Source: Microcella sp.
Lineage (GTDB): Bacteria > Actinomycetota > Actinomycetes > Actinomycetales > Microbacteriaceae
Direction: 5' to 3'
DNA: 64,000 nt
Assembly: GCF_019739195.1 (NCBI RefSeq)
Contig: NZ_JAHHDS010000003.1
Span: forward strand, 1,674,001 to 1,738,000
Shown here: positions 222-14,656 of the stretch, piece after piece
How positions within the stretch are numbered: position 1 is the stretch's first letter
How the letters are laid out: the number at the start of each line of letters is the position of its first letter
Notes under the pieces: model-generated
What the model saw: only the letters and a program-made list of their open reading frames with translations
Told to the model about the DNA's origin: nothing
Database searches by the model: none
Made by a program: the position numbers and the translations under genes

Positions 222-983
222 GTGCGTTTGATAGGCCAGAATCCAACTACAACTCATGTTGATCTCAAGGAGTTTCCGTTGCCAATAGACCCGATGCGCC
301 CCAAGTCGTCGAAGGCGAGGGTGGCTGCCTTCGTAGCTCTGGTCGGCGAGGGCAACAAGTTCTCGAAGCTTGAGATGTTCAATGCGGTCCCTGGCGTTTC
401 GCAGGCTGACCGGCGGATGCGCGATCTCCGTGAGATCGGATGGGTGATCGACAACTACAAGGGGAACCCGACACTCAAGCCCGACGAGTACCTCGTGCGG
501 AAGATTGGCATTCGCGTCGACCTCGGCGAAAAGCCGCCAGTTTCATCGGGTCGCAAGTCGGTGACTGGAGCTAAGCGCCGTCGCATCTTCGATAGAGATG
601 GCAATACGTGCCAGGTGTGCTTTATCGCTGGTGGTAGCGAATTCGCAGATGCCCCTGGCCGCCGCGCGACTCTGACGATCGGCCACATCATTCCAGTCGC
701 GAGGGGCGGATCGGATGACGACGACAACCTGCGTACCGAGTGCCAGCGCTGCAACGACGAGTCTCGCGACGCGACATTGAATCCCCCTGACAAGAATGAA
801 GTGTTGACTCGAGTTCGGAACGTGGGCGGCCGCGCCGACAAGCTGGAGCTCTTCCAGTGGATGCAACGCGGTAGCCGACCTTTGACGGACAAGGAGCGCA
901 TATTTACGGACTGGGCTCGCCTTCCGGTTTCTCAGCGCATTGAACTGATGGCCGAACTCTCTCGCGAGGTTCACGGGTCTTGA
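222..983 (+). CDS. HNH endonuclease, first gene of putative defence operon
   Basis: A 253-aa protein with a zinc-stapled HNH nuclease domain in its middle. A CxxC pair (C130, C133) precedes GHIIPVARGG, whose H155 is the likely catalytic base, followed by N169 and a second CxxC (C174, C177) with N178 in the third motif position. About 100 residues before the domain are unassigned and may bind DNA or a partner. The start is uncertain. GTG at 222 has no clear ribosome site, but TTG at 279 sits 6 nt after a perfect AAGGAG (267-272) and would give a protein 19 residues shorter. An SOS-type box lies just upstream. The next gene follows after 179 nt in the same direction. The nuclease family call is firm; its part in the system is inferred. 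Confidence 0.85.
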   Translation: MRLIGQNPTTTHVDLKEFPLPIDPMRPKSSKARVAAFVALVGEGNKFSKLEMFNAVPGVSQADRRMRDLREIGWVIDNYKGNPTLKPDEYLVRKIGIRVDLGEKPPVSSGRKSVTGAKRRRIFDRDGNTCQVCFIAGGSEFADAPGRRATLTIGHIIPVARGGSDDDDNLRTECQRCNDESRDATLNPPDKNEVLTRVRNVGGRADKLELFQWMQRGSRPLTDKERIFTDWARLPVSQRIELMAELSREVHGS

Positions 984-1162
984 ACCGCATCGCTTCGGCC
1001 TGGTCTTGGCGTCTGAAGAGTCCATAGTCAAGACTGAGCCTCCAGCCAGCGCCTTGTTGCTCTCAGATAAGCCGCTTCAACAGCGAGGCGGCGCGAGGCG
1101 ACAGGATTGTCTGCGTTTCAAGATAACCTCACATCAAAATTGTTGCAGGAGGGTCTGGCGCG

Positions 1163-3214
1163 ATGATGGGCGACTACGAGGATTGGCAAAAGGTGCTTTC
1201 CTCCGCCTTCTTGCTTCGACACGATGGCCCAACTGTGCTTTTTCTTGACGAGAGTGAGCTCACTCGGCTCCGACCGGACGCCGAGAATGCATCAGATGAC
1301 CTTGCCCATGCGGTGCGCAGTCGGCTCCGACTCGCGCACGGCCGTTTGATGTTCGAGCCCATCATGGCCTACTACAGGAAGTGGCAGCGGGGCACGCAAC
1401 TTGATGCGCCACCGGTGCTGCCAGTGATAGCCCTGACGGTGCTCGCTGCGACCAGGATGCGATCCGACGCGGAGGCGCGCTCCACCAACTACTACCTTCG
1501 GCTCGCGCAAGCGCTCACCCCAGTTGCCGACCCGGGCACCATCGAGTCTCTGCGTAAAGACCTAAGGGAGGGCGGTGCTTTCCTTGACGCGGTCGAGATG
1601 TGGCGCGGGTTGCACGAGTGGATTGAAAGGCAAGACGGTGCTGTAGGGGCCTCGACGATCCGGGACCACCCGCATCTTCAGCGGATCGGATACCCACTCT
1701 CACAAGCCCTCGTGCGACAGAGCGATCGCATTGCGCTCACCCGCTTCTTCCAGGCACTCGACTTCTCTCCCGGCGAGACACCTGATGCCCTCGTCATCGC
1801 CCGTGCGCTCGACATTTGGACGGCAGCGGCCCAGAACCGGCTGAGTGAGACCTTTATGCGTGCGCTAAGCGACGCGGATCTTCGCCAGCTGCTCGCCGAG
1901 GTTGTCGAAGCCCATGCGCGATCGTGGGACGGCCGGGTGCTGACCAGTGATGGGAAGCAAAGGATCGCAATGCGGCTCAAAATCGATCTTGATGCATGGC
2001 TGGTTAGCTGGCTGTTCCCCATCCCGCCAGGCGGGCCTGAGCAGCTCACAGTTCTCTCGCTGGACGGCGACCGGGAAGTCAACCTCACCGCCTTGGCTGG
2101 CCTGGAATACTACTCTGTTGAGGGAAGCCCGGCCGTAACTCCCGGTTTGCTGACTTCCGGATTCCAGCTGCGCGGTAGCGAGTTCACGGCTGAGTTTGCG
2201 CCATCACCTGTGATCTTCTTGCGACCTGATCCACAAACGGGTGCTTGGACTTCAACTCCGGGGATACTTCCCTTCGAGGAGCATCTGGTCGCGATAGGCG
2301 CCCCGCACGTCACGGAGTTTCAAGAAGTTCTCAGCCAGGCCGCCGCAGAGGGTTGGCGTGTCGTGCCTCAGCGCGGGTCCGTTCTCCTCTCCGGTTACGC
2401 CATGTTCGAAAAAGTCCGCTTCACCGACGGCCAGTCCCTTCAGCGAGCACTGAACGGAATTCCGGGCCTGCGCCGCATAGGTGTCACCCCCGCTGTGATT
2501 CCTCGCGCACGGCTTGTTCGCGGGCTTCCCATCGCCACTTCAATCTCTGCGACGCATTATCTGGTCGGCGGCGAACCGGACCTACTACTTCCTTCCGGAG
2601 TCGATCCGCGCCCCGCGACCGTAATTCTCGACGGTCGTCGTGAGCAGCTCCAGGCGAATGGTTTCCCGCTTGAACTGCGTCGCTTCATCAGCGAGGCAGG
2701 AGGCCATGTCGTCGATGCTGACGGGCAAGAGCTCTCCTTCACCACCCTGGAAGAGGGACCAGCTCCTTCCCCGCCCCCAGGTACCGCTACCCTCGGCTGG
2801 ACCAGTGACATAGAGATGAGTGGGAAGGACGAGCAGATCGCCGTAACAGGCGCCAGCGTTCATGACCCCGCCAGCTCTCACCTGGTACTCGCGCGCCGCG
2901 GCCGTGACGAGTCCTGGCTCTTGCACGACGATGGGCGCACCGAGCGCCTGGCGGAACCCGAACCGCCTACGTTCCTCTCGAGTATCGACATCGAGATCCA
3001 CTCGTCGCGCTTCGAGATTGGTGCACCTGCGAGCGCCTGTTGGCTGGCCCAGCGTCGCGGGTCGCATTGGCGCCTCACGGAGATCGGCGCTTCAGAACCG
3101 AAAGAGCACGACATCGAAATTGACGTTCTAGAGGCATGGAAGCGTGCATGTAGCGACCCGAATGGCGCGCGACTCTGGATGATGCAGCTAAGTATGGCCG
3201 GGGGTGCGGCATGA
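1163..3214 (+). CDS. Unrecognised 683-aa protein of putative defence operon
   Basis: I do not recognise this family. The start is supported by AGGAGG at 1147-1152, 10 nt before the ATG. The first ~300 residues look helical and rich in Leu/Arg, with a stretch reading YYLRLAQAL near residue 112 and LSQALVRQSDRIALTRFF near 175-195. The rest alternates short hydrophobic and polar segments, suggesting beta-rich domains, with a Pro-rich linker (PAPSPPPG) near residue 535. No nuclease, ATPase, methyltransferase or membrane motif was seen. It overlaps the next gene by 4 nt (ATGA), so the two are probably made together. It may be an adaptor or DNA/virion-recognition subunit for the large helicase downstream, but that is guesswork from context. 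Confidence 0.7.
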   Translation: MMGDYEDWQKVLSSAFLLRHDGPTVLFLDESELTRLRPDAENASDDLAHAVRSRLRLAHGRLMFEPIMAYYRKWQRGTQLDAPPVLPVIALTVLAATRMRSDAEARSTNYYLRLAQALTPVADPGTIESLRKDLREGGAFLDAVEMWRGLHEWIERQDGAVGASTIRDHPHLQRIGYPLSQALVRQSDRIALTRFFQALDFSPGETPDALVIARALDIWTAAAQNRLSETFMRALSDADLRQLLAEVVEAHARSWDGRVLTSDGKQRIAMRLKIDLDAWLVSWLFPIPPGGPEQLTVLSLDGDREVNLTALAGLEYYSVEGSPAVTPGLLTSGFQLRGSEFTAEFAPSPVIFLRPDPQTGAWTSTPGILPFEEHLVAIGAPHVTEFQEVLSQAAAEGWRVVPQRGSVLLSGYAMFEKVRFTDGQSLQRALNGIPGLRRIGVTPAVIPRARLVRGLPIATSISATHYLVGGEPDLLLPSGVDPRPATVILDGRREQLQANGFPLELRRFISEAGGHVVDADGQELSFTTLEEGPAPSPPPGTATLGWTSDIEMSGKDEQIAVTGASVHDPASSHLVLARRGRDESWLLHDDGRTERLAEPEPPTFLSSIDIEIHSSRFEIGAPASACWLAQRRGSHWRLTEIGASEPKEHDIEIDVLEAWKRACSDPNGARLWMMQLSMAGGAA

Positions 3215-4137
3215 TCGGCGACCTCCTGCTGGCCTGGATCAGCGAAGCCGGAAACGGCACGATCGCCGACTTCCGCGCCCGTGCCGCGTGGCTTGCACGG
3301 ACTGAGAACCTCGATCTGCACGAGAGCGCCACGGGAAGATGGCTTCGAGACGCCTCAGCGCTTGGCCATTGCGAAGTCGATTGGAAGCACGGGAAGTGGT
3401 CTGTTGCTCCGCCAGTTATCACCAGGCTCCCGCTCGCCGATGGCCTCGCGGTCCTAGTCGGGGCACGACGGCAACGGCTGCTCCGCGCAATCGACGAAGA
3501 GGGGGTTTACGCGGAGCAAGCACGACGACTTGGCTCCAGCCGAGACATCCCCCCTCCGTGCACGATCCTCATGCCTTACGAGCGAACCCGCGACCTCGAG
3601 GAGTACGCTGCAGCACTCGGCGCGGTTTACTCTGGCTGCGCGGCAGCCGCAATAGCAGCCTTGCTCGGGACCACAGCCCCTGCCAAACCGACGGCACCTC
3701 CAGCCTACGACTCGCCATTCGAGCACCTCTCCAGCTTCAGCCCACAAACGTGGGCGCCGACATTGCCCAGCCGACCGAATCCCAGCGAGGGCCTACACCG
3801 CGAGCAGGTCAACGGCCGCTGGCAACACTTACTGCGACGCGAGGGCGGCTGGTACGCCACCGACCTCTCAAGAGGAGTCTTCGCCGAGCTCGCACGGCGG
3901 GGCGAGACCGTCATCCGCTGGCGGCCCGACGGCGATCACCGAACCAGAACAGGCACAGTCATAGTCGACTGGGGAGCGTCGTTGCCGCCGCTCCAGGCGC
4001 GCGCACTCGTGCTCTGTAGCGGGTTTGTGCCGCGATTCGGAAGTGCCGCTGAGACCTCCCTTTACGACAATGTCCCCCGAGAAATCGCCGCCCGAGTCGC
4101 CTCCTCGCTTGGGCAGACGCTGCAGACCAGCAGCTAA
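3211..4137 (+). CDS. Unrecognised 308-aa protein, possible winged-helix N-terminus
   Basis: Coupled to the preceding gene by an ATGA overlap and 21 nt ahead of the helicase gene. The first ~75 residues resemble a small helical/winged-helix domain (TGRWLRDASALGHCEVDWKHG followed by a hydrophobic strand). An Ala/Pro-rich linker spans about residues 140-175. The C-terminal domain (about 190-308) contains WQHLLRREGGWYATDLSRG and IVDWGASLPPLQARALVLC, ending in LYDNVPREIAARVASSLGQ. No catalytic motif was identified. The fixed position between the 683-aa protein and the helicase suggests a structural or DNA-binding subunit of one complex. The function is unknown to me. Confidence 0.7.
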   Translation: MIGDLLLAWISEAGNGTIADFRARAAWLARTENLDLHESATGRWLRDASALGHCEVDWKHGKWSVAPPVITRLPLADGLAVLVGARRQRLLRAIDEEGVYAEQARRLGSSRDIPPPCTILMPYERTRDLEEYAAALGAVYSGCAAAAIAALLGTTAPAKPTAPPAYDSPFEHLSSFSPQTWAPTLPSRPNPSEGLHREQVNGRWQHLLRREGGWYATDLSRGVFAELARRGETVIRWRPDGDHRTRTGTVIVDWGASLPPLQARALVLCSGFVPRFGSAAETSLYDNVPREIAARVASSLGQTLQTSS

Positions 4138-4158
4138 GCAGAGAGACCCGGTCCGCAC

Positions 4159-7100
4159 ATGACCAGTACAACCAGGAACTTGGACGCGATCCAGACGTTC
4201 GAGCACCTACGCGACGCCTATTTCCGCTACTACGACACGCCATTCGGCCTCGCCGACGAACGCCTTCAGGCCGAACGCCGAGCGCTCCTCGACCGCGACG
4301 GTGGCGCGTACCGCAAACCTCTGATTGAGCTCCGGGCCGAGTACGAAAGCACAGGCCGCAGCCTCGCTGATTCCGCCGCAGCCGCGGGCGCAGATCCTGA
4401 CCTGGCGGACTTCATCAACGCCGGCTTGATGCAGGGCGTCCCCTCGCTCTATCGGCATCAGGAAGAAGCCCTTACTGCGGGATTGCAGCGCGGTCGGCAT
4501 ATGGTGATCACCGCGGGAACCGGCTCAGGCAAGACTGAGTCGTTTCTTATGCCGCTCTTGTCCTCGATGTTGAGCGAATCGCGCACCTGGACAGGGAGTG
4601 GAGCCTCCGCGTCTGACTGGTGGACTGGCGGTGACAACTCATTCCATACTCAGCGCGACGGGGAGAACGGTCGCGAAACTGCTGTCCGCGCGATCGTTCT
4701 TTATCCGATGAACGCGCTAGTTGACGATCAGCTCATCCGCCTGCGTCGCGCTCTCGACAATGACGACATCCGCGCCTGGCTCGACGCGAACCGAAACAGT
4801 CACCGTTTCTACTTTGGCCGGTACACCGGGGCTACTCCAGTTACAGGCAGTCGTGTCAACAGTCTCGCCCTCGGCGAACTGCGCCGCTACCTGCGTCAGA
4901 CCGACCAGCGCGGAGCCAGAGCGCGCCAGATCGCAGTCGACAATGATGACGACGATCTTCGCTACTTCGTGCCGCGCCTGGACGGGGCCGAGATGCGCTC
5001 CCGCTGGGACATGATCGATTACCCACCCGACATTCTCATCACGAACTACTCAATGCTGAACGTGATGCTGCTTCGCGAGCGGGACGGCCATTTCTTCGAC
5101 TCCACGCGCCGATGGCTAGACAACCCCGCCAACGTCTTCACCCTCGTCGTTGACGAGCTGCACACCTACCGTGGAACCGCGGGCACCGAGGTCGCTTATC
5201 TGCTCCGGACACTGAAGCGCCGCCTCGGCCTGCACGATCGACCCGAGCAATTCCGAGTCCTCGCGGCTTCAGCCTCGCTTGATCCCGCACGAGACGAGGA
5301 ATACTTGCACCAGTTCTTCGATGTCGAGCCCGGTACGTTCAACTTTGTCGCTGGAGCCAGCGCGACCCCGGACGGATACCAGATACCCCCTGCTGTCGAC
5401 CCGGAGATTCTCGCCGTCGCAGATGCGGCGGCCGCTGCTGCAGACGGGAGAACTGCGGGTGTGGTGAGCGCTATTCGCGGTGTACTTCACGCCGATGGGG
5501 CTGGCGGGGCTATGACGCTCAGCCAGGTCGCTCAAGAGATCTTCCCCGGGACCCCCAGCGAAGTGTCGGAGCCCGCAATCGCGAATGTCCTTGCCGGGCT
5601 CGCCCAAGAGCCGCAGCCGCACGATCCGAAGTTTCGCGCTCATCTCTTCTTCCGCAACGTAGTCGGTATGTGGGCATGCAGCGACCCTGCCTGTTCAGCC
5701 GTCGTCGACCCGCAGGCAGATCGCACCGTGGGCAGACTTTATGCCGAACCGGCAACTCGGTGCGAGTGCGGCGCTAGGGTACTCGAACTGCTCTATTGCC
5801 AAAACTGTGGCGACGTCCTCCTTGGTGGCTTTGCCCCCGAAGGCGAACTCCAAAAGCCGGCAGTTAAGACGATGCTGCTTGCAGACGTACCGGAACTCGC
5901 TAAATTGCCCGACCAGGTCACGTTGCAGCGCACCGCCGACAACTACCTTGTTTACTGGCCGCGCCCGGAGGGCGCCTTGACCAATCTCGATTCGACCACC
6001 TGGGGCCGCGACAACAATGCCGTCGCATACGCTTTCCGACCGAGCAAGCTCATCCCGGCGTCAGGCGAGATTAGCAACATTGCCGAGGGATTCACTGGAT
6101 GGAGTTTTCACGCCCGCATCGCCAAAAACAGCACAACTGGTGAACTGCGCCGCGCCCCAGAGACCGTGAGCCCATTCCCAACGCAGTGTCCGAACTGTGG
6201 GGATGACTGGGAGATCCAGTTCGGTCGCAATGGAAGGCTGGCGGCAACAGATCCAGCCACCCAGCGCTCCCCCATCCGGCAGATGCGAACTGGCTTCGAA
6301 AAGATCAATCAGGTGCTCACTACTGAGCTCGCCAATGACCTTCCAGATGCAGACCGCAAGCTGATCGTTTTCACCGACAGTAGACAGGATGCCGCGAAGC
6401 TCTCTGCCGGTCTGAGTTTGCGGCATTACCAGGACCTCCTGCGTCAGTTGCTGTACACAAGACTTGCCAGCTCGGGCGTCAGCGTGAGTGATGTCGAACT
6501 GGCTGAGGGTCACGTAGTTCGTAACGAGAAAACTCCCGAGTCTTTCGCCGCTCTCGAGCGGCTCAGGAAGCGCAACGCCTCATCGCTTGACGAACTCCGA
6601 AACGTGTGGGACGGGAAGCCCGGAACAGGCCTCGCCGACGCCGAGCGACTCAAGGCCGCGCTCGCCGCCCCGCCATCTCTGAGGGAGCTCGTCGCCGAGG
6701 TTTCTTCCGATCTGCTCAAGCTTGGAATGAACCCTGGAGGCCCGCGCGCTCGCCTCCGCGAGACCGCCGAAGATCCCGCTGTGCCATGGTCCGAGCTATA
6801 CGACTGGAGCTCCACGCCGCCCACGCCAAAGCCAGGACTCACTGACCCGCAGAAGTCTCTACTTAGTGACATCGCCCGCTCCCTTGAGGAGGAGCTTCTA
6901 GAGGGGCTGTTTTCAGGCGGGGGGCGCGATTTCGAATCCCTCGGCCTTGGCTGGCTAGCGCTTGCATCCGACACCTCACCAGCCGAAACTCCGGCTGATC
7001 CTGCCACCGGACAGGCACGCGCGGCCTTGCGCATCCTTGCCGATCAGCGTCGGTTCTTTGGCTTGCGCACTCGCCGCGACGAGCCGACCCCCAAACTCCG

Positions 7101-9588
7101 AAAGTTCTGGACAGCAGTGGCAGCCGCAGGAGCATCCACCATAGATGGCCTCCGCGACGACGCCTTGAGCAGAGCCGACACCGCAATAACGGAGTATCTG
7201 ATCGACCCCTCCGCTGTCGTATTGCGGGTTGGTGAAGGACGTGCCTGGATATGCAACAGATGTAGCCGCCAACACCTGAGCACTGGTAATGGTTACTGCA
7301 CGAAGTGTGCTAAGCCGCTGCCCGCCACTGCTGTCCCTATTGACCTGACCCAGGACTACTACTCGTGGAAAGCCATCCGGGACGACGGCAGGTTCCGTCT
7401 CAATTCCGCAGAGCTGACTGGCCAGACTGATCGCATCGATGCGCAGTCCCGCCAATCACGCTTCCAGGACGTCTTCCTGGGCTCTGGCGAGAATGAGCTA
7501 ACTGATGCCATTGACATCCTCTCGGTGACCACGACGATGGAAGCCGGAGTCGATATCGGCGCGCTCTCGGCAGTCGTCCTCGGCAATATGCCACCGAGCC
7601 GGTTCAATTATCAGCAGCGGGTCGGCCGCGCGGGGCGCCGCAACTCGCCAGTCGCGATCGCGCTGACCGTCTGCCGCGGCCGCAGCCACGACGAGTATTA
7701 CTTCGAACGACCGGATCGCATCACGAACGACCCGACACCGAAGCCTTACCTCGCCCTAGATCGGCCCGAGATCTTCTCCCGCTCGCTCCGCAGTGAGATA
7801 CTCCGCCAGGCGTCGTCTGACTTCATCTCCGCAGAGGCCGGCGAAGACGCTAGCGCGAACGTGCATGGCGCGTTCGGTAAGGCCGCCGACTGGCAAACGA
7901 TGCTCCGGCCCAGACTCGAAGACTGGTTGCGAAACAACACAGATGTTGCTCGGGAAACTGCGCGATCTCTCGCCCGAAGTACGGCATTCCAGGGCAGCGC
8001 AGAAGAGGAGGCAGCGAGGTGTGCAAGCACCCTTCTCGACGACATCGATAACGCGGCTCGGACCCAGCGCCACGCGGATCTCAGTCAGCTGCTCGCCGAA
8101 AGTGGTCTACTGCCAATGTTCGGCTTCCCCACTTCGGTCCGGTACCTCTACCTGAAGCGGCCGCAGCGCTCCTACCCATGGCCGCCAGCTGGGGTCATCG
8201 ACCGCGACTTGAGCATGGCCGTCAGTCAGTTCGCTCCCATGAGCGAAGTCGTTCGTGATGGAACCGTCTACCCAGTTGTTGGGATCACCGCGTTTAAGCC
8301 ATTCGGTCCGCGCCCCCAGGCCGAAACTGAACCGCTCGGCGCTGAATCGCTGTTGTCCGTTTGTCGCGCCTGCTCCTATCTCGGCGAACAGCAGATCGTC
8401 CTCACATGCCCAAGATGTGGCGCCGGACCCGGCTCATACAACACCATCCCGCTCCGTGAACCTTTGGGGTTCCGAAGCGCGCCCGGCACGGATTTCGATG
8501 GCAACTTCTCGTGGAGCCCCCGCGCTATGGCTGCACGAGCAATGACCGACATGGACGCCCTCGCCCGTCAGACTCCCGGCAACGCCTTGATCTTGGCCGG
8601 CCCCGGCTCTCGGTACGTCATCAACGACAACGGTGGACAGCTCTTCTCTCTCCGCCGGGCGACTCCGGGCGGCCCCGAATGGGGCGGCTACGTCTCGACT
8701 CGCGCGATCGACGCCGGACTGCTCCATTCGTCATTCGCCATTGGCGACCCCATAAACGTCGCCCTCGGCGCGATCCAACACACCGATTTCTTCTTTGCCG
8801 GCGCCGCTGCACCTACGGACTCCAAAGCTGGGCTAAGGCTAAACCTCGTCTCGGGCGTCCGCCAGCCGTATGGCGCTGACGAAGTCACCGATAGCAGACG
8901 TGCCGGCTGGTACTCGCTTGCGTTCCTCTTGCGCACCGTCGCCTCCGCGGCACTCGACATTCAGCCCCTAGAGTTGGCGGCCGGCATTTACTCAGGCGTC
9001 ACTGGAACTGAACCCTCAACATATGCATTTCTCGCGGACACCCTCGAGAACGGTGCAGGGTTCTGCACCCGACTCGGCTCACAGGAGTTCCTGCCCGAAT
9101 TCCTCGGCGCGATCGACACCTACCTGACTGAATTGGAGGAGCCCTCGCACGCGGATGATTGCAGTTCTTCGTGCTACCGCTGCTTACGGGACTACGGCAA
9201 CATGGCCTATCACGCCCTACTCGATTGGCGGCTCGCTAGGGACCTGTTTCGCCTGCTACAGGGGCGGCCACTGAATGTCGATCGCGTCACAGAAATGGCC
9301 GCCATCAAACGCTGGGCGCGCGCCTACAATGCGAAGTTGATCGGCAACAACGTCCCGGTCGCACGATACGACAGCCCCAGCGCCGGTTCATTCGCATTGA
9401 TCGCCCGCCACGCCTTCGAGGCTTCAGAAGAGACTCTCATTGCGTCACGTCTCGCCGAGACGATGGCCGAGATCGAGGCGTCCGAAAAGGGGCTCAATGG
9501 TGTGGTCTTTGTCGACTCCTTCACCCTCGATCGCGATCCGCGCCGTGTACTTAAGCTCATCTCCGACTCCGAGTTAGCAGGTGCATGA
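4159..9588 (+). CDS. DruE/DISARM-like giant helicase with DUF1998-type C-terminus
   Basis: An 1809-aa superfamily 2 helicase. Motif I GTGSGKT is at residues 120-126, motif II is a DELH box at 332-335, and motif VI QQRVGRAGRR starts at 1152 with an upstream TTTMEAGVDIG. The two helicase lobes are separated by about 800 residues that hold a Cys cluster (C507, C512, C535, C537, C547, C550), a CPNC at 677-680 and a four-Cys ribbon (C1032, C1035, C1047, C1050). A further ribbon (C1402, C1405, C1417, C1420) and C1668/C1672/C1675 in a CSSSCYRC motif are typical of the DUF1998/MrfA-type C-terminal region. Size and layout fit Druantia DruE. DISARM splits the same parts into DrmA and DrmB. Likely role: ATP-driven DNA translocation in phage defence or damage processing. 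The nuclease gene after it overlaps by 4 nt. Confidence 0.85.
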   Translation: MTSTTRNLDAIQTFEHLRDAYFRYYDTPFGLADERLQAERRALLDRDGGAYRKPLIELRAEYESTGRSLADSAAAAGADPDLADFINAGLMQGVPSLYRHQEEALTAGLQRGRHMVITAGTGSGKTESFLMPLLSSMLSESRTWTGSGASASDWWTGGDNSFHTQRDGENGRETAVRAIVLYPMNALVDDQLIRLRRALDNDDIRAWLDANRNSHRFYFGRYTGATPVTGSRVNSLALGELRRYLRQTDQRGARARQIAVDNDDDDLRYFVPRLDGAEMRSRWDMIDYPPDILITNYSMLNVMLLRERDGHFFDSTRRWLDNPANVFTLVVDELHTYRGTAGTEVAYLLRTLKRRLGLHDRPEQFRVLAASASLDPARDEEYLHQFFDVEPGTFNFVAGASATPDGYQIPPAVDPEILAVADAAAAAADGRTAGVVSAIRGVLHADGAGGAMTLSQVAQEIFPGTPSEVSEPAIANVLAGLAQEPQPHDPKFRAHLFFRNVVGMWACSDPACSAVVDPQADRTVGRLYAEPATRCECGARVLELLYCQNCGDVLLGGFAPEGELQKPAVKTMLLADVPELAKLPDQVTLQRTADNYLVYWPRPEGALTNLDSTTWGRDNNAVAYAFRPSKLIPASGEISNIAEGFTGWSFHARIAKNSTTGELRRAPETVSPFPTQCPNCGDDWEIQFGRNGRLAATDPATQRSPIRQMRTGFEKINQVLTTELANDLPDADRKLIVFTDSRQDAAKLSAGLSLRHYQDLLRQLLYTRLASSGVSVSDVELAEGHVVRNEKTPESFAALERLRKRNASSLDELRNVWDGKPGTGLADAERLKAALAAPPSLRELVAEVSSDLLKLGMNPGGPRARLRETAEDPAVPWSELYDWSSTPPTPKPGLTDPQKSLLSDIARSLEEELLEGLFSGGGRDFESLGLGWLALASDTSPAETPADPATGQARAALRILADQRRFFGLRTRRDEPTPKLRKFWTAVAAAGASTIDGLRDDALSRADTAITEYLIDPSAVVLRVGEGRAWICNRCSRQHLSTGNGYCTKCAKPLPATAVPIDLTQDYYSWKAIRDDGRFRLNSAELTGQTDRIDAQSRQSRFQDVFLGSGENELTDAIDILSVTTTMEAGVDIGALSAVVLGNMPPSRFNYQQRVGRAGRRNSPVAIALTVCRGRSHDEYYFERPDRITNDPTPKPYLALDRPEIFSRSLRSEILRQASSDFISAEAGEDASANVHGAFGKAADWQTMLRPRLEDWLRNNTDVARETARSLARSTAFQGSAEEEAARCASTLLDDIDNAARTQRHADLSQLLAESGLLPMFGFPTSVRYLYLKRPQRSYPWPPAGVIDRDLSMAVSQFAPMSEVVRDGTVYPVVGITAFKPFGPRPQAETEPLGAESLLSVCRACSYLGEQQIVLTCPRCGAGPGSYNTIPLREPLGFRSAPGTDFDGNFSWSPRAMAARAMTDMDALARQTPGNALILAGPGSRYVINDNGGQLFSLRRATPGGPEWGGYVSTRAIDAGLLHSSFAIGDPINVALGAIQHTDFFFAGAAAPTDSKAGLRLNLVSGVRQPYGADEVTDSRRAGWYSLAFLLRTVASAALDIQPLELAAGIYSGVTGTEPSTYAFLADTLENGAGFCTRLGSQEFLPEFLGAIDTYLTELEEPSHADDCSSSCYRCLRDYGNMAYHALLDWRLARDLFRLLQGRPLNVDRVTEMAAIKRWARAYNAKLIGNNVPVARYDSPSAGSFALIARHAFEASEETLIASRLAETMAEIEASEKGLNGVVFVDSFTLDRDPRRVLKLISDSELAGA

Positions 9589-10559
9589 CTTCCGTTGATG
9601 AAGCGCCGCGATGGTGGTCAGCGACAGCCACTTGGCGCCTCTTGTCTTGCCCCGCCTCCGCCTCGCCTACTGCGGCTCCGGCAAAGCCGCCCGAGCACAG
9701 CGCAAGCAACGCTGGCGCGGTGGCGCACCTCGCGTTGCAAGCCTGGGCTGAAGCAGGAGAGTGGTCGTTTCCAGACCCAGGAGGGCGACTGCAGGAACGC
9801 TTTGACGAAGTCGCGGAAGTGCACGGTGCGGAGCCGGCGCGCATGCCCCAGGCAATCATCACGCGGGCACGCCTGAAGTCCAGGGGGAAGGAACTTGCAG
9901 CGATACTCGGCCGCGCGAGTGAGCGTACGGGGCTCCTGAGTGAACTGATGCTTGTCGACGACCAGGAGCATCTATTCGGCATCGTTGACCTAGTAGCTCC
10001 CGGCCCCGGCGGACTCATCGTCGATCTCAAGACTGGACGCGACGCCTCTGTGCTGTCATCGCCAGCGATAGAGCACCAGATGAGGTTCTACGCGCACCTC
10101 TTCCAGGCGACCTACGGCTCGCTTCCGCAAAGTGCGATCGTGTTCAGCCTCCAGAGCGGACCCGTAGAGATCGGTGTGACCCCCTCAGCAACTGCCGAGC
10201 TCCTCAGCGACATCCGAACCGCGAGGCTGTTGGCTGGCATCACCGCCCGCCCTGATGCAGCCACGTGCCGATTCTGCCCGAAACGCATGATCTGCCAGCC
10301 GCATTGGGAAGCCCTCTCCACCTGGGATCACGCTGACGCGATCGAAGGCAGAATTGTCAGCATCGAGCACTCGACTTCGGGAACCGTTGCACTGCTTGTC
10401 GGCAGCGATTGGCTTACGGGAATACCCGCAGGCCTCCTTCCGGAGGGCGCCACGCCCGGTCAGTTCGTCCGCGCCGTCCGAATCCGGCGGCGTAGAGACA
10501 GCCCATTAGGGGACTGGTGCGCCACCAGCAGCACACGCCTCCACATCGCGCCTGCGTAA
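9585..10559 (+). CDS. Cas4/AddB-type PD-(D/E)XK nuclease with Fe-S cysteines
   Basis: A 324-aa RecB-family nuclease. The start overlaps the helicase stop (ATGA), implying translational coupling. Catalytic features are GIVD (D135), the DLK motif (D147, K149) and QxxxY (Q165, Y169). Four cysteines, C22 near the N-terminus plus C228, C231 and C237 (C-x2-C-x5-C), have the spacing used by Cas4 and AddB to hold a [4Fe-4S] cluster around the nuclease fold. Residues after ~250 form an extra domain (GRIVSIEHSTSGTVALLVG) that looks like a small beta-barrel and may bind nucleic acid. It probably cuts or trims DNA opened by the preceding helicase. The nuclease call is confident; the partnership is inferred from coupling. 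Confidence 0.85.
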   Translation: MTSVDEAPRWWSATATWRLLSCPASASPTAAPAKPPEHSASNAGAVAHLALQAWAEAGEWSFPDPGGRLQERFDEVAEVHGAEPARMPQAIITRARLKSRGKELAAILGRASERTGLLSELMLVDDQEHLFGIVDLVAPGPGGLIVDLKTGRDASVLSSPAIEHQMRFYAHLFQATYGSLPQSAIVFSLQSGPVEIGVTPSATAELLSDIRTARLLAGITARPDAATCRFCPKRMICQPHWEALSTWDHADAIEGRIVSIEHSTSGTVALLVGSDWLTGIPAGLLPEGATPGQFVRAVRIRRRRDSPLGDWCATSSTRLHIAPA

Positions 10560-10601
10560 CGGCTAACCTTTCAGTTCAAGCGTTGAGCGCCACAACGCCG
10601 T

Positions 10602-10637
10602 CGCGAATGCCTGATTTCCCAAGTCGGGCATCACGCG
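10602..10637. terminator. Hairpin between convergent genes
   Basis: Arms ATGCCTGA (10607-10614) and TCGGGCAT (10624-10631) pair with one G-U, flanked by CGCG on both sides. The hairpin lies in the 154-bp space where the defence operon and katG converge, so it may terminate from both sides. There is no run of T, hence low confidence. Confidence 0.35.
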
Positions 10638-10713
10638 TATGCCAGGAGAAAAGTGAGTCCAGGAGTCCATCGACTCCCCTGGCCGAGCATCCAATGGCCG
10701 GACGCGCTGGTGG

Positions 10714-12969
<2,256 letters not shown>

Positions 12970-14214
12970 CTAGTTCCAGAGCGCTGACACGGGCGCGCCA
13001 TATAGCCGATCGGCATAGCGATAACCCGTCTCGGAGGTGTTGAGTACGATGCCGGCGACAAACTTCGAGCCGAGAGCGTCGCGCATTCGGGCGAGCCCCG
13101 TGAACTGTCGGGCAGTGAACGAGCTCGCCGACTTCACTTCGATGCCGATCACGCTGCCGTCGTTGAGCTCGATGACGATGTCGACCTCGCCGCCGTCGCG
13201 GTCGCGCCAATGAAAGATGTCGTACGGCCGCGCCGACCACGTGCGCTGCTTCAAAAATTCGGCGGCCACGAACGCTTCGAGGAAGGCACCGAACGCCTCA
13301 CCGTACTCCAGTCGGCCGAGTTGGTCTGGGGTTACCCGTGCGAGCCAGAGGGCGAGCCCCGAATCGGCAATGAAGGTCTTCGGTCGACCGATCTCGCGTT
13401 TGGCGAGGTTGGGCGTCCACGGCGGAAGGCTCGCGACCAGACCGACGTCATGTACGAGGTCGAGGTAGCCCGTGATGGTGGTTGCTGGCACCGTAGTCTC
13501 ACTGGCCAACGTCGCCTTGACGAGTTCTGCTGATTGTCGCCCCGCTAGCGTGCGCAACACTGCCATCGACCGGGCAGGCCGCACTTCGCGCTTGAGCTCT
13601 GACATGTCTCGCTCGACGACACCTCGAACGTAACCCTCAAACCACGCTGTACGCACGCGAGGTGTTGCGGCGTAAATCTCGGGGTAGGAGCCAGCCGCAA
13701 GCAGGGCTGCGTAACCGGTGCGGGTGTAGTGAGACTCGGCGCTCGTGATGGTCTCGATTCCGTCGATCACCGTGCTGACGAAGTCATCCGCAGTGCCCAT
13801 GATTTCGCCGCGGCTCAGGCCATGCAGGTTCATCCGACCCACGCGACCCGCCAGGCTGTCGACCGTGCCCCGCACCCGAAGCAGACTTGCTGATCCCGTG
13901 AGAATGAACCGCCCCGGTCTACGGTCTCGGTCGATCGACGCCTTGATCGCGAGCGTCAGTGATGGCATCCGCTGGATCTCGTCGATGACCTGCTGACGCT
14001 CGCCGCTTTCGGCGATGAACCCGGCGGGGTCAGCGATGGCCGCTGCCCTGACTTGCTCATCATCGAGTGTTCGGATCAGTGCGTCTGGCTGGGCGATCTC
14101 CTGCGCGAGGGTGCTCTTGCCGACTTGGCGTGCCCCTTCGATCACGATGCCGGGGAAATGCTCGAGGTACTCTCTCGCGACGGGGGCCGCGTGTCGTGGG
14201 AGAAAGTCCGTCAC
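12970..14214 (-). CDS. AAA ATPase with DUF4143 domain
   Basis: A 414-aa protein of the common AAA_14/DUF4143 family. The Walker A is EGARQVGKST near residue 28, the Walker B-like segment is QQVIDEIQRMP, and sensor-like FILTGSAS follows. The C-terminal DUF4143 region includes FHWRDRDGGEVDIVIE and GIEVKSASSF, which resembles a PD-(D/E)XK-type core (D, E-x-K). The GTG at 14214 is preferred because homologues start close to LPRH and the longer frame runs through three direct repeats. The molecular function of the family is not established. It is often accessory, and here it lies beside a tRNA cluster. Confidence 0.8.
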   Translation of the reverse strand: MTDFLPRHAAPVAREYLEHFPGIVIEGARQVGKSTLAQEIAQPDALIRTLDDEQVRAAAIADPAGFIAESGERQQVIDEIQRMPSLTLAIKASIDRDRRPGRFILTGSASLLRVRGTVDSLAGRVGRMNLHGLSRGEIMGTADDFVSTVIDGIETITSAESHYTRTGYAALLAAGSYPEIYAATPRVRTAWFEGYVRGVVERDMSELKREVRPARSMAVLRTLAGRQSAELVKATLASETTVPATTITGYLDLVHDVGLVASLPPWTPNLAKREIGRPKTFIADSGLALWLARVTPDQLGRLEYGEAFGAFLEAFVAAEFLKQRTWSARPYDIFHWRDRDGGEVDIVIELNDGSVIGIEVKSASSFTARQFTGLARMRDALGSKFVAGIVLNTSETGYRYADRLYGAPVSALWN

Positions 14215-14234
14215 CCCGCGAGAGTATCGCAAAC

Positions 14235-14291
14235 TCGTAGATTCGCGACACCGAATCCGTACATTTGCGGAGCCCAATTCGTAGATTCGCG
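14235..14291. repeat. Three direct repeats with 22-bp period upstream of ATPase gene
   Basis: TCGTAGATTCGCG occurs at 14235-14247 and 14279-14291, with a diverged copy (CCGTACATTTGCG) at 14257-14269. The spacing is exactly 22 bp, about two helical turns, so all copies face the same side of the helix. They sit 20-80 bp upstream of the GTG of the DUF4143 ATPase gene and look like an operator array. Confidence 0.55.
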
Positions 14292-14338: not shown

Positions 14339-14414
14339 TGGTGGCTCCGACGGGCGTCGATCCCGTGACCTCACGATTTTCAGTCGTGCGCTCTACCAAC
14401 TGAGCTACAGAGCC
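14339..14414 (-). tRNA. tRNA-Phe (GAA)
   Basis: A complete cloverleaf reads on the minus strand from GGCTCTGTAGCTCAG. The anticodon loop CTGAAAA gives GAA, and GTTC-type T-loop bases (here GATCGAC) are followed by GGAGCCA and an encoded CCA. It is the last of three tRNAs in one array. A (GA)8 tract lies just beyond it. Confidence 0.95.
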
Positions 14415-14473
14415 AGAAGGCCTGGAGGCCCTCTTACGGAACAAGCCCCCTCCGAAGAGAGGGCTCATCGCCG

Positions 14474-14550
14474 TGGCGACCCTGACCGGACTTGAACCGG
14501 CGACCTCCGCCGTGACAGGGCGGCGCGCTAACCAACTGCGCTACAGGGCC
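14474..14550 (-). tRNA. tRNA-Asp (GTC)
   Basis: The 5' acceptor GGCCCTG pairs with CAGGGTC. The anticodon loop CTGTCAC gives GTC. The T-arm GGTTCAAGTCC is standard and CCA is encoded (14474-14476). It is the middle gene of the minus-strand tRNA cluster. Confidence 0.96.
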
Positions 14551-14577
14551 AAACATATTCAGTTGTAAGCGGTGCGC

Positions 14578-14656
<79 letters not shown>

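Follow-up and report, generated by a model that had tools for sequence, protein, structure and literature searches.

This locus raises the question of whether five genes that run in one direction in the genome of a Microcella sp. form a new defence system. The window, meaning the whole stretch of 64,000 nucleotides that was analysed, carries on its plus strand an HNH gene (222-983, 253 aa, GTG start), followed by druF (1163-3214, 683 aa), druL (3211-4137, 308 aa), druE (4159-9588, 1809 aa) and druK (9585-10559, 324 aa). The gap between the HNH gene and druF is 179 nt, druF and druL overlap by 4 nt, druL and druE are 21 nt apart, and druE and druK overlap by 4 nt. A previous sequence-only reading had described this layout correctly, as it had the HNH, SF2 helicase and PD-(D/E)XK nuclease domains, which are matched in Pfam by PF01844 (E 4e-9), by DEAD and Helicase_C (E 3e-16 and 2e-7) and by PDDEXK_1 (PF12705, E 6e-13), respectively. 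It was also right in placing a Cas4-like nuclease in a defence-like operon with a DruE-type helicase, and the 683- and 308-aa proteins, which it did not recognise, have no match in Pfam.

However, the new variant or relative that it had proposed matches a system that already has a name. When all five proteins were compared with the PADLOC models, the HNH protein matched REase_II (E 1.4e-10), while the other four matched Druantia type IV models over their full lengths, so that the four-gene set is not new. DruF matches DruF4 PDLC00052 (E 3.1e-262) and DruF2 PDLC00017 (E 2e-288), DruL matches DruL4 PDLC00057 (E 1.7e-123, 1-307 of 308), and DruK has its own PADLOC model, PDLC00059 (E 8.6e-116). 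Residues 6-1804 of DruE, a YprA-family SF2 helicase, align with positions 2-1826 of 1829 in DruE4 PDLC00051 at 2553 bits. Judged by these profile matches, the genes druF-druL-druE-druK, which span window positions 1163-10559, make up an operon of Druantia type IV, as named by PADLOC in 2021, and the locus itself is one more instance of it. In its accessible text, the PADLOC paper defines type IV by DruE, DruF and DruL, counts 168 instances in 11 phyla, and states that the type is without DruM and DruG (PMC8565338). DruE, DruF and a DruL encoded by a separate gene are all present here, and DruG is absent among the best 25 PADLOC matches of each of six window proteins and two left-hand neighbours. 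In the searchable literature, which leaves most subscription journals outside, the name “druantia type IV” or “druantia IV” occurs in PMC8565338 only, and no experimental work on the type was found.

For comparison, we assembled 89 loci with DruE-like helicases, of which 80 are public loci and nine, the window included, come from whole genomes. Two DruE peptide patterns had yielded 415 stretches, confirmed by tblastn, of which the 80 best were kept as the public loci; these lean to relatives of the window, many of them interrelated. The compact order druF-druL-druE, the same as in Druantia type IV, is not due to chance: druF and druL are no more than 60 nt apart in 63 of the 64 loci where the gap can be measured, and druL and druE in 64 of 67. 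Homologues of the 683- and 308-aa proteins do co-occur with the helicase, and the HNH gene is mostly missing from such loci.

The partners of the helicase differ from those of Druantia types I-III, as had been listed. Type II is nevertheless close in several respects: DruE scores 2080 and 1696 bits against the DruE2 models, DruF matches both DruF2 PDLC00017 and PDLC00020 in full length, and a DruM-like methyltransferase adjoins the operon. Type II combines DruM and DruG with DruE and DruF, and membership was rejected since no DruG match is listed among the best 25 for any protein scanned. The locus differs from type IV as published in that a C5 methyltransferase scoring with DruM models is located close by, here and in many relatives; at this locus, it is part of a separable pair with the HNH enzyme.

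The Druantia proteins

DruL has so far been regarded as an uncharacterised kind of protein that takes the place of DruM and DruG. In addition to its own model, it matches the C-terminal ends of the long DruF2 models, at positions 768-1027 of 1030 in PDLC00016 and 947-1007 of 1011 in PDLC00023. Four loci (L037, L038, L040 and L099) encode long DruF proteins that are type II-like by length. A profile of 49 separate DruL proteins matches the C-terminal 275-324 residues of all four (E 9e-25 to 6e-36), and their N-terminal parts match a profile built from 48 stand-alone DruF proteins (E 4e-46 to 4e-65). By these profile matches, DruL is therefore the C-terminal third of a long, type II-like DruF that is encoded as a separate gene. 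The two proteins are thus separate in the window, whereas the long DruF2 models of 1011 and 1030 aa hold both. This relation between DruL and DruF is new from the present comparison.

The predicted structure of DruF (pLDDT 85.7) is helical in residues 1-254 and rich in β-strands in the remainder, and that of DruL has a pLDDT of 94.8. The DruL model has no match at E 0.001 or better in the PDB or BFVD. The only PDB match to the DruF model is an S-layer protein (4uic, E 1.3e-4), which was disregarded because of its TM-scores of 0.07, and the sequence profiles of DruF and DruL reveal no relative of known structure (E 0.6 and 0.066 at best). A role as sensors can be proposed for the two proteins by analogy only, because their models match no solved fold credibly.

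The helicase motifs of DruE, which are Walker A (residues 120-126), DELH (332-335) and motif VI (1153-1160), are kept in 82-85 of 85 relatives. The DUF1998-type C-terminus that had been read from the sequence is borne out: the MZB domain, at 22.2 bits, falls short of the Pfam cut-off (24.2), yet 84 of the 85 relatives keep its three cysteines, C1668, C1672 and C1675. Altogether, 20 cysteines are kept in at least 90% of the relatives. Past residue 1695, only H1751, P1752 and P1794 reach 90%, and this C-terminal tail contains no acidic or lysine residue conserved among the 85 relatives. The small number of kept residues is in line with the inactive Vsr domain predicted at the C-terminus of types I and II DruE by Bell and colleagues, in the accessible text of their paper (PMC12458937). 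For type III, the accessible part of another report describes DruE as engaging 3'-tailed DNA and DruH as the likely sensor (PMC13192584). When five DruE sequences were combined into a profile, the solved structures that it matched were 9wae (E 7.5e-292), 9tu7 (E 6.7e-89) and 6znp (YprA/MrfA, E 2e-19). The first two are the nearest solved relatives of DruE, and their depositors named them only “Helicase” and “DEAD/DEAH box helicase”.

DruK is a RecB/Cas4-type PD-(D/E)XK nuclease by its conserved residues. Among 29 relatives, C22, H48, D135, Y169, C228 and C231 are kept in all, C237 in 28, and D147, K149 and Q165 in 27. The protein thus has the histidine, the aspartate, the D-x-K and QxxxY motifs and the four cysteines of the family, a pattern that we take to be that of Cas4/AddB-type nucleases. 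The four cysteines probably bind an Fe-S cluster. DruK has the residues expected of a nuclease that partners DruE, since the nuclease domain at the C-terminus of the helicase itself appears inactive. Of the 82 loci with enough downstream sequence to be judged, 32 contain druK and 50 lack it, and therefore DruK cannot be the universal effector.

The methyltransferase and HNH genes and their chromosomal site

The statement that no methyltransferase was in view holds for the window itself, but not beyond it. Positions 1-43 contain, on the minus strand, the initial codons of a gene for a C5 DNA methyltransferase, which runs leftwards from position 43 across the window edge (L035:17793-19043, contig C3 1672793-1674043; 416 aa in full). 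The protein is DruM2/MTase_II-like: it matches PF00145 (E 2e-53), PADLOC DruM2 PDLC00032 (E 1.8e-200, 665 bits) and MTase_II PDLC03304 (E 2.7e-173, 575 bits), contains the PC, ENV and GAGG motifs, and is the sole PF00145 match in its genome. The gene is on the strand opposite to druF, 1.1 kb upstream of it, and is divergent from the HNH gene, with 178-179 nt between them.

The HNH protein is probably the restriction enzyme of this methyltransferase. In the congener G791, the same site contains a DUF1801-like gene, the methyltransferase (94% identical), the HNH gene (82% identical) and katG, without druFLEK. Methyltransferase and nuclease thus stand side by side, as in a type II restriction-modification system, and also occur on their own. 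The similarity to G791 ends at window position 952 and resumes at 10676 (blastn), and G791 carries about 1.1 kb with two small ORFs where the window has 953-10675. This stretch was either inserted here or lost in G791. Since the pair stands alone at the same site in G791, the HNH gene is, by this comparison of gene content, a separate unit outside the Druantia operon.

Counts across genomes agree. Among 398 genomes of the family, the HNH protein was found in 12 (E 1e-10 or better) and the methyltransferase clade in 25 (E 1e-40 or better). The two genes are at most 0.7 kb apart in eight of the 12 HNH genomes and 4.3 kb apart in a ninth (G624), and the remaining three have no methyltransferase match at 1e-40. 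Only the genome studied here (G000) has a type II/IV-grade DruE among the 12, and G784 has a more distant helicase. Conversely, a type II/IV DruE match is lacking in 22 of the 25 genomes that have the methyltransferase clade. Of the 89 DruE-like loci, 11 have an HNH homologue in the vicinity of DruE, with place and strand varying; 10 of these homologues are within 430 nt of a C5 methyltransferase, and the other (L045) is without one. No HNH gene is present near DruE in the two nearest relatives of the window, one in which druF was found (L044) and one in which it was lost (L055). A five-gene unit that includes the HNH gene, as proposed from the sequence alone, was rejected in view of G791 and these neighbourhood counts. 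Co-transcription of druF with the HNH gene is possible; no promoter-like site was found by consensus scan in the gap between them, and the scans for promoters and terminators did no better than shuffled sequences (1 versus 1.7 and 4 versus 6.9).

The site itself is a defence hot spot, because four congeners show four different contents there. In addition to the window and G791, G790 contains a type IV methyl-directed restriction protein with another HNH protein, and G700 contains Mza genes with a methyltransferase. DruF4 is found in one of 26 genomes of the genus, and the G+C content of the genes is 59-66%, compared to 69% for the left flank and 67% elsewhere in the window, both as expected for import.

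Further features are located in the vicinity. On the other side of katG, an AAA_14/DUF4143 ATPase gene (window 12970-14277) matches the PADLOC candidate PDC-S01 (E 3e-144) and looks like a second accessory insert, because it is missing from G791 and G790. Beside it, genes for tRNA-Phe, tRNA-Asp and tRNA-Glu lie in a row (window 14339-14656) and are a possible integration site. To the left of the hot spot is a PemK/MazF-like toxin gene (L035:15690-15947, 85 aa, PF02452 E 2e-12).

C5 methyltransferases near Druantia II/IV loci and the readings they allow

The DruE II/IV clade comprises 87 of the 89 loci, while L042 and L043 fall outside it and were placed with the controls. A C5 methyltransferase is located within 5 kb in 30 of the 54 loci of the clade that have at least 5 kb of sequence on both sides, and not in the other 24; the window's own methyltransferase was added to the neighbourhood count by hand. 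Looser inclusion gives 49 of 75, an inflated figure since positives were accepted with any flank and negatives only with at least 4 kb on both sides, so that 30 of 54 is the fair one. Among the 49, the methyltransferase gene is upstream in 17 loci on the opposite strand and in 14 on the same strand, and downstream in 10 and eight, respectively. Its presence changes at least 12 times on the DruE tree. These data suggest that Druantia II/IV-type defence often stands beside a C5 methyltransferase.

The C5 enzymes form several far-apart clades in a FastTree phylogeny, which, given its long-branch warnings, shows distance only. The methyltransferase of the window is in one clade with those beside NaeI (12 of 13 NaeI loci, the fragment in L078 being unplaced) and NgoMIV (L101), with the difference that the partner here is an HNH enzyme. 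Restriction enzymes nearby were profile-checked for selected genes, and NaeI was confirmed by profile in two of the 13 loci (L044 and L115). The target of NaeI is GCC/GGC. A published text gives G/CCGGC for NgoMIV and prints the NaeI target as GCC/CCG (PMC4081073). From the partner enzymes of its clade, the methyltransferase of the window is predicted to act on GCCGGC. This site occurs 67 times in the window against 75.7 expected, which is uninformative on avoidance.

Our preferred reading is that a Druantia IV operon sits in a defence hot spot and adjoins an independent pair of C5 methyltransferase and HNH enzyme. By analogy with type III, DruF and DruL would detect infection or the phage DNA itself and then load DruE or license it, and DruE would translocate along DNA with tails or nicks, as the type III protein is reported to do. 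DruK, recruited in trans, would degrade the unwound strand much as RecBCD or AddAB does, a step suggested by its conserved residues, and other proteins would stand in for it at loci without druK. The neighbouring methyltransferase would mark self DNA for its HNH enzyme, and perhaps for Druantia too. At this locus, the stand-alone pair in G791 favours protection against the HNH partner only, while the wider neighbourhood counts are compatible with protection against Druantia as well. Taken together with its mechanism, we regard this reading as evenly poised.

A wider reading, which we put forward tentatively and with the balance against it, is that Druantia II/IV is a modification-guarded form of restriction: for the host to be spared, the DruF-DruL-DruE core would need a DNA methyltransferase encoded nearby, in most cases a C5 enzyme, from one or another of several interchangeable lineages, and cutting would fall to an exchangeable nuclease, either DruK or another protein. 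If so, type IV would amount to type II in which DruF has been divided into DruF and DruL, and many type IV loci would have an overlooked component in their modification gene. If a C5 methyltransferase guards the host from Druantia II/IV, the way in which this defence distinguishes self from non-self would become testable.

Alternatively, Druantia IV and restriction-modification genes might share defence islands with no functional tie, a possibility that we consider rather doubtful. In line with it, the hot spot holds the methyl-directed enzyme in G790 and the Mza genes in G700, the methyltransferase is found on either side and either strand of the DruE loci, and some islands contain further defence genes, such as AbiEii, pAgo and PDC-S02. 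However, no C5 methyltransferase is present within 5 kb in any of 21 loci with other DruE-like helicases, all from the same family and five with less than 4.5 kb of sequence on at least one side. In a sample of the phylum, 43 of 149 genomes have such an enzyme and 106 have none anywhere. Furthermore, among 59 loci with at least 4 kb on both sides, 35 have a C5 enzyme, 11 a type I-like amino-methyltransferase (identified as HsdM by eye, and in eight of the 11 from one Streptomyces clade), 13 have neither, and none has both. Fisher tests on these loci and on the neighbourhood counts take no account of relatedness.

It is unlikely that the six genes form one system in which the methyltransferase provides the self-mark and the HNH protein is the initiating nuclease, as in type II Druantia with DruM. 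DruM2 gives the methyltransferase a higher score than MTase_II does, its gene lies directly upstream of druF here, and the 30 of 54 loci with a C5 enzyme include several in which methyltransferase, druF, druL and druE form one operon in that order, with front gaps of at most 122 nt (L110, L114, L116 and L120, which span Kerfeldbacteria, Cyanobacteria and Planctomycetota). Against this stand the pair without Druantia in G791, the 22 family genomes with the methyltransferase clade and no type II/IV DruE, and the rarity and changing position of the HNH gene, including its absence from L044 and L055.

Finally, a DISARM-type system in which a single chain combines DrmA and DrmB, to which the sequence-only reading had likened the helicase, is refuted by the comparison of models: although DrmA belongs to the same helicase family as DruE according to the accessible text of PMC12458937, the matches to DrmA are weak and partial (E 5e-10 at best, over 75 residues, whereas DruE4 reaches 2553 bits over the whole protein), DrmB and DrmC have no match among the listed PADLOC families of the window proteins, and the products of druF, druL and druK match Druantia models and not DISARM ones.

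Genes downstream of druE in related loci

In 15 loci, nearly all from Streptomyces, druE is followed by a gene for a protein of about 580 aa and mostly then by GrpE-like and Hsp70-like genes (L039, L061, L062, L064, L065, L066, L069, L071, L073, L075, L076, L079, L082, L083 and L086). The one member scanned (L065) has no Pfam or PADLOC match, and the labels GrpE and Hsp70, as well as HsdM above, were assigned by visual inspection of the sequence and of an NPP[FY] motif. A chaperone-linked Druantia variant in the place of DruK is possible in these 15 loci. Another five loci (L089, L093, L094, L095 and L117) encode a 515-aa ATPase after druE, followed by a second gene; the ATPase matches PDC-M01A and PtuA1 and is Septu-like, as assigned from L095.

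Three loci are decayed or rearranged relatives: druE is in two pieces in L055, where neither druF nor druL was found, druK is in fragments in L045, and druL and druF are located behind druK on the opposite strand in L118. In a Planctomycetota bin (L116:2981-16342), methyltransferase, druF, druL, druE, druK and a Vsr gene follow one another in a single run with gaps of at most 20 nt, and a PLD-type, NgoFVII-like gene ends at the start of the methyltransferase. The Vsr assignment was confirmed by profile for this one of 16 cluster members. Beside another DruE locus, a Vsr-like gene adjoins a class II prokaryotic Argonaute (L109:15463-18206; pAgo_II E 5e-256).
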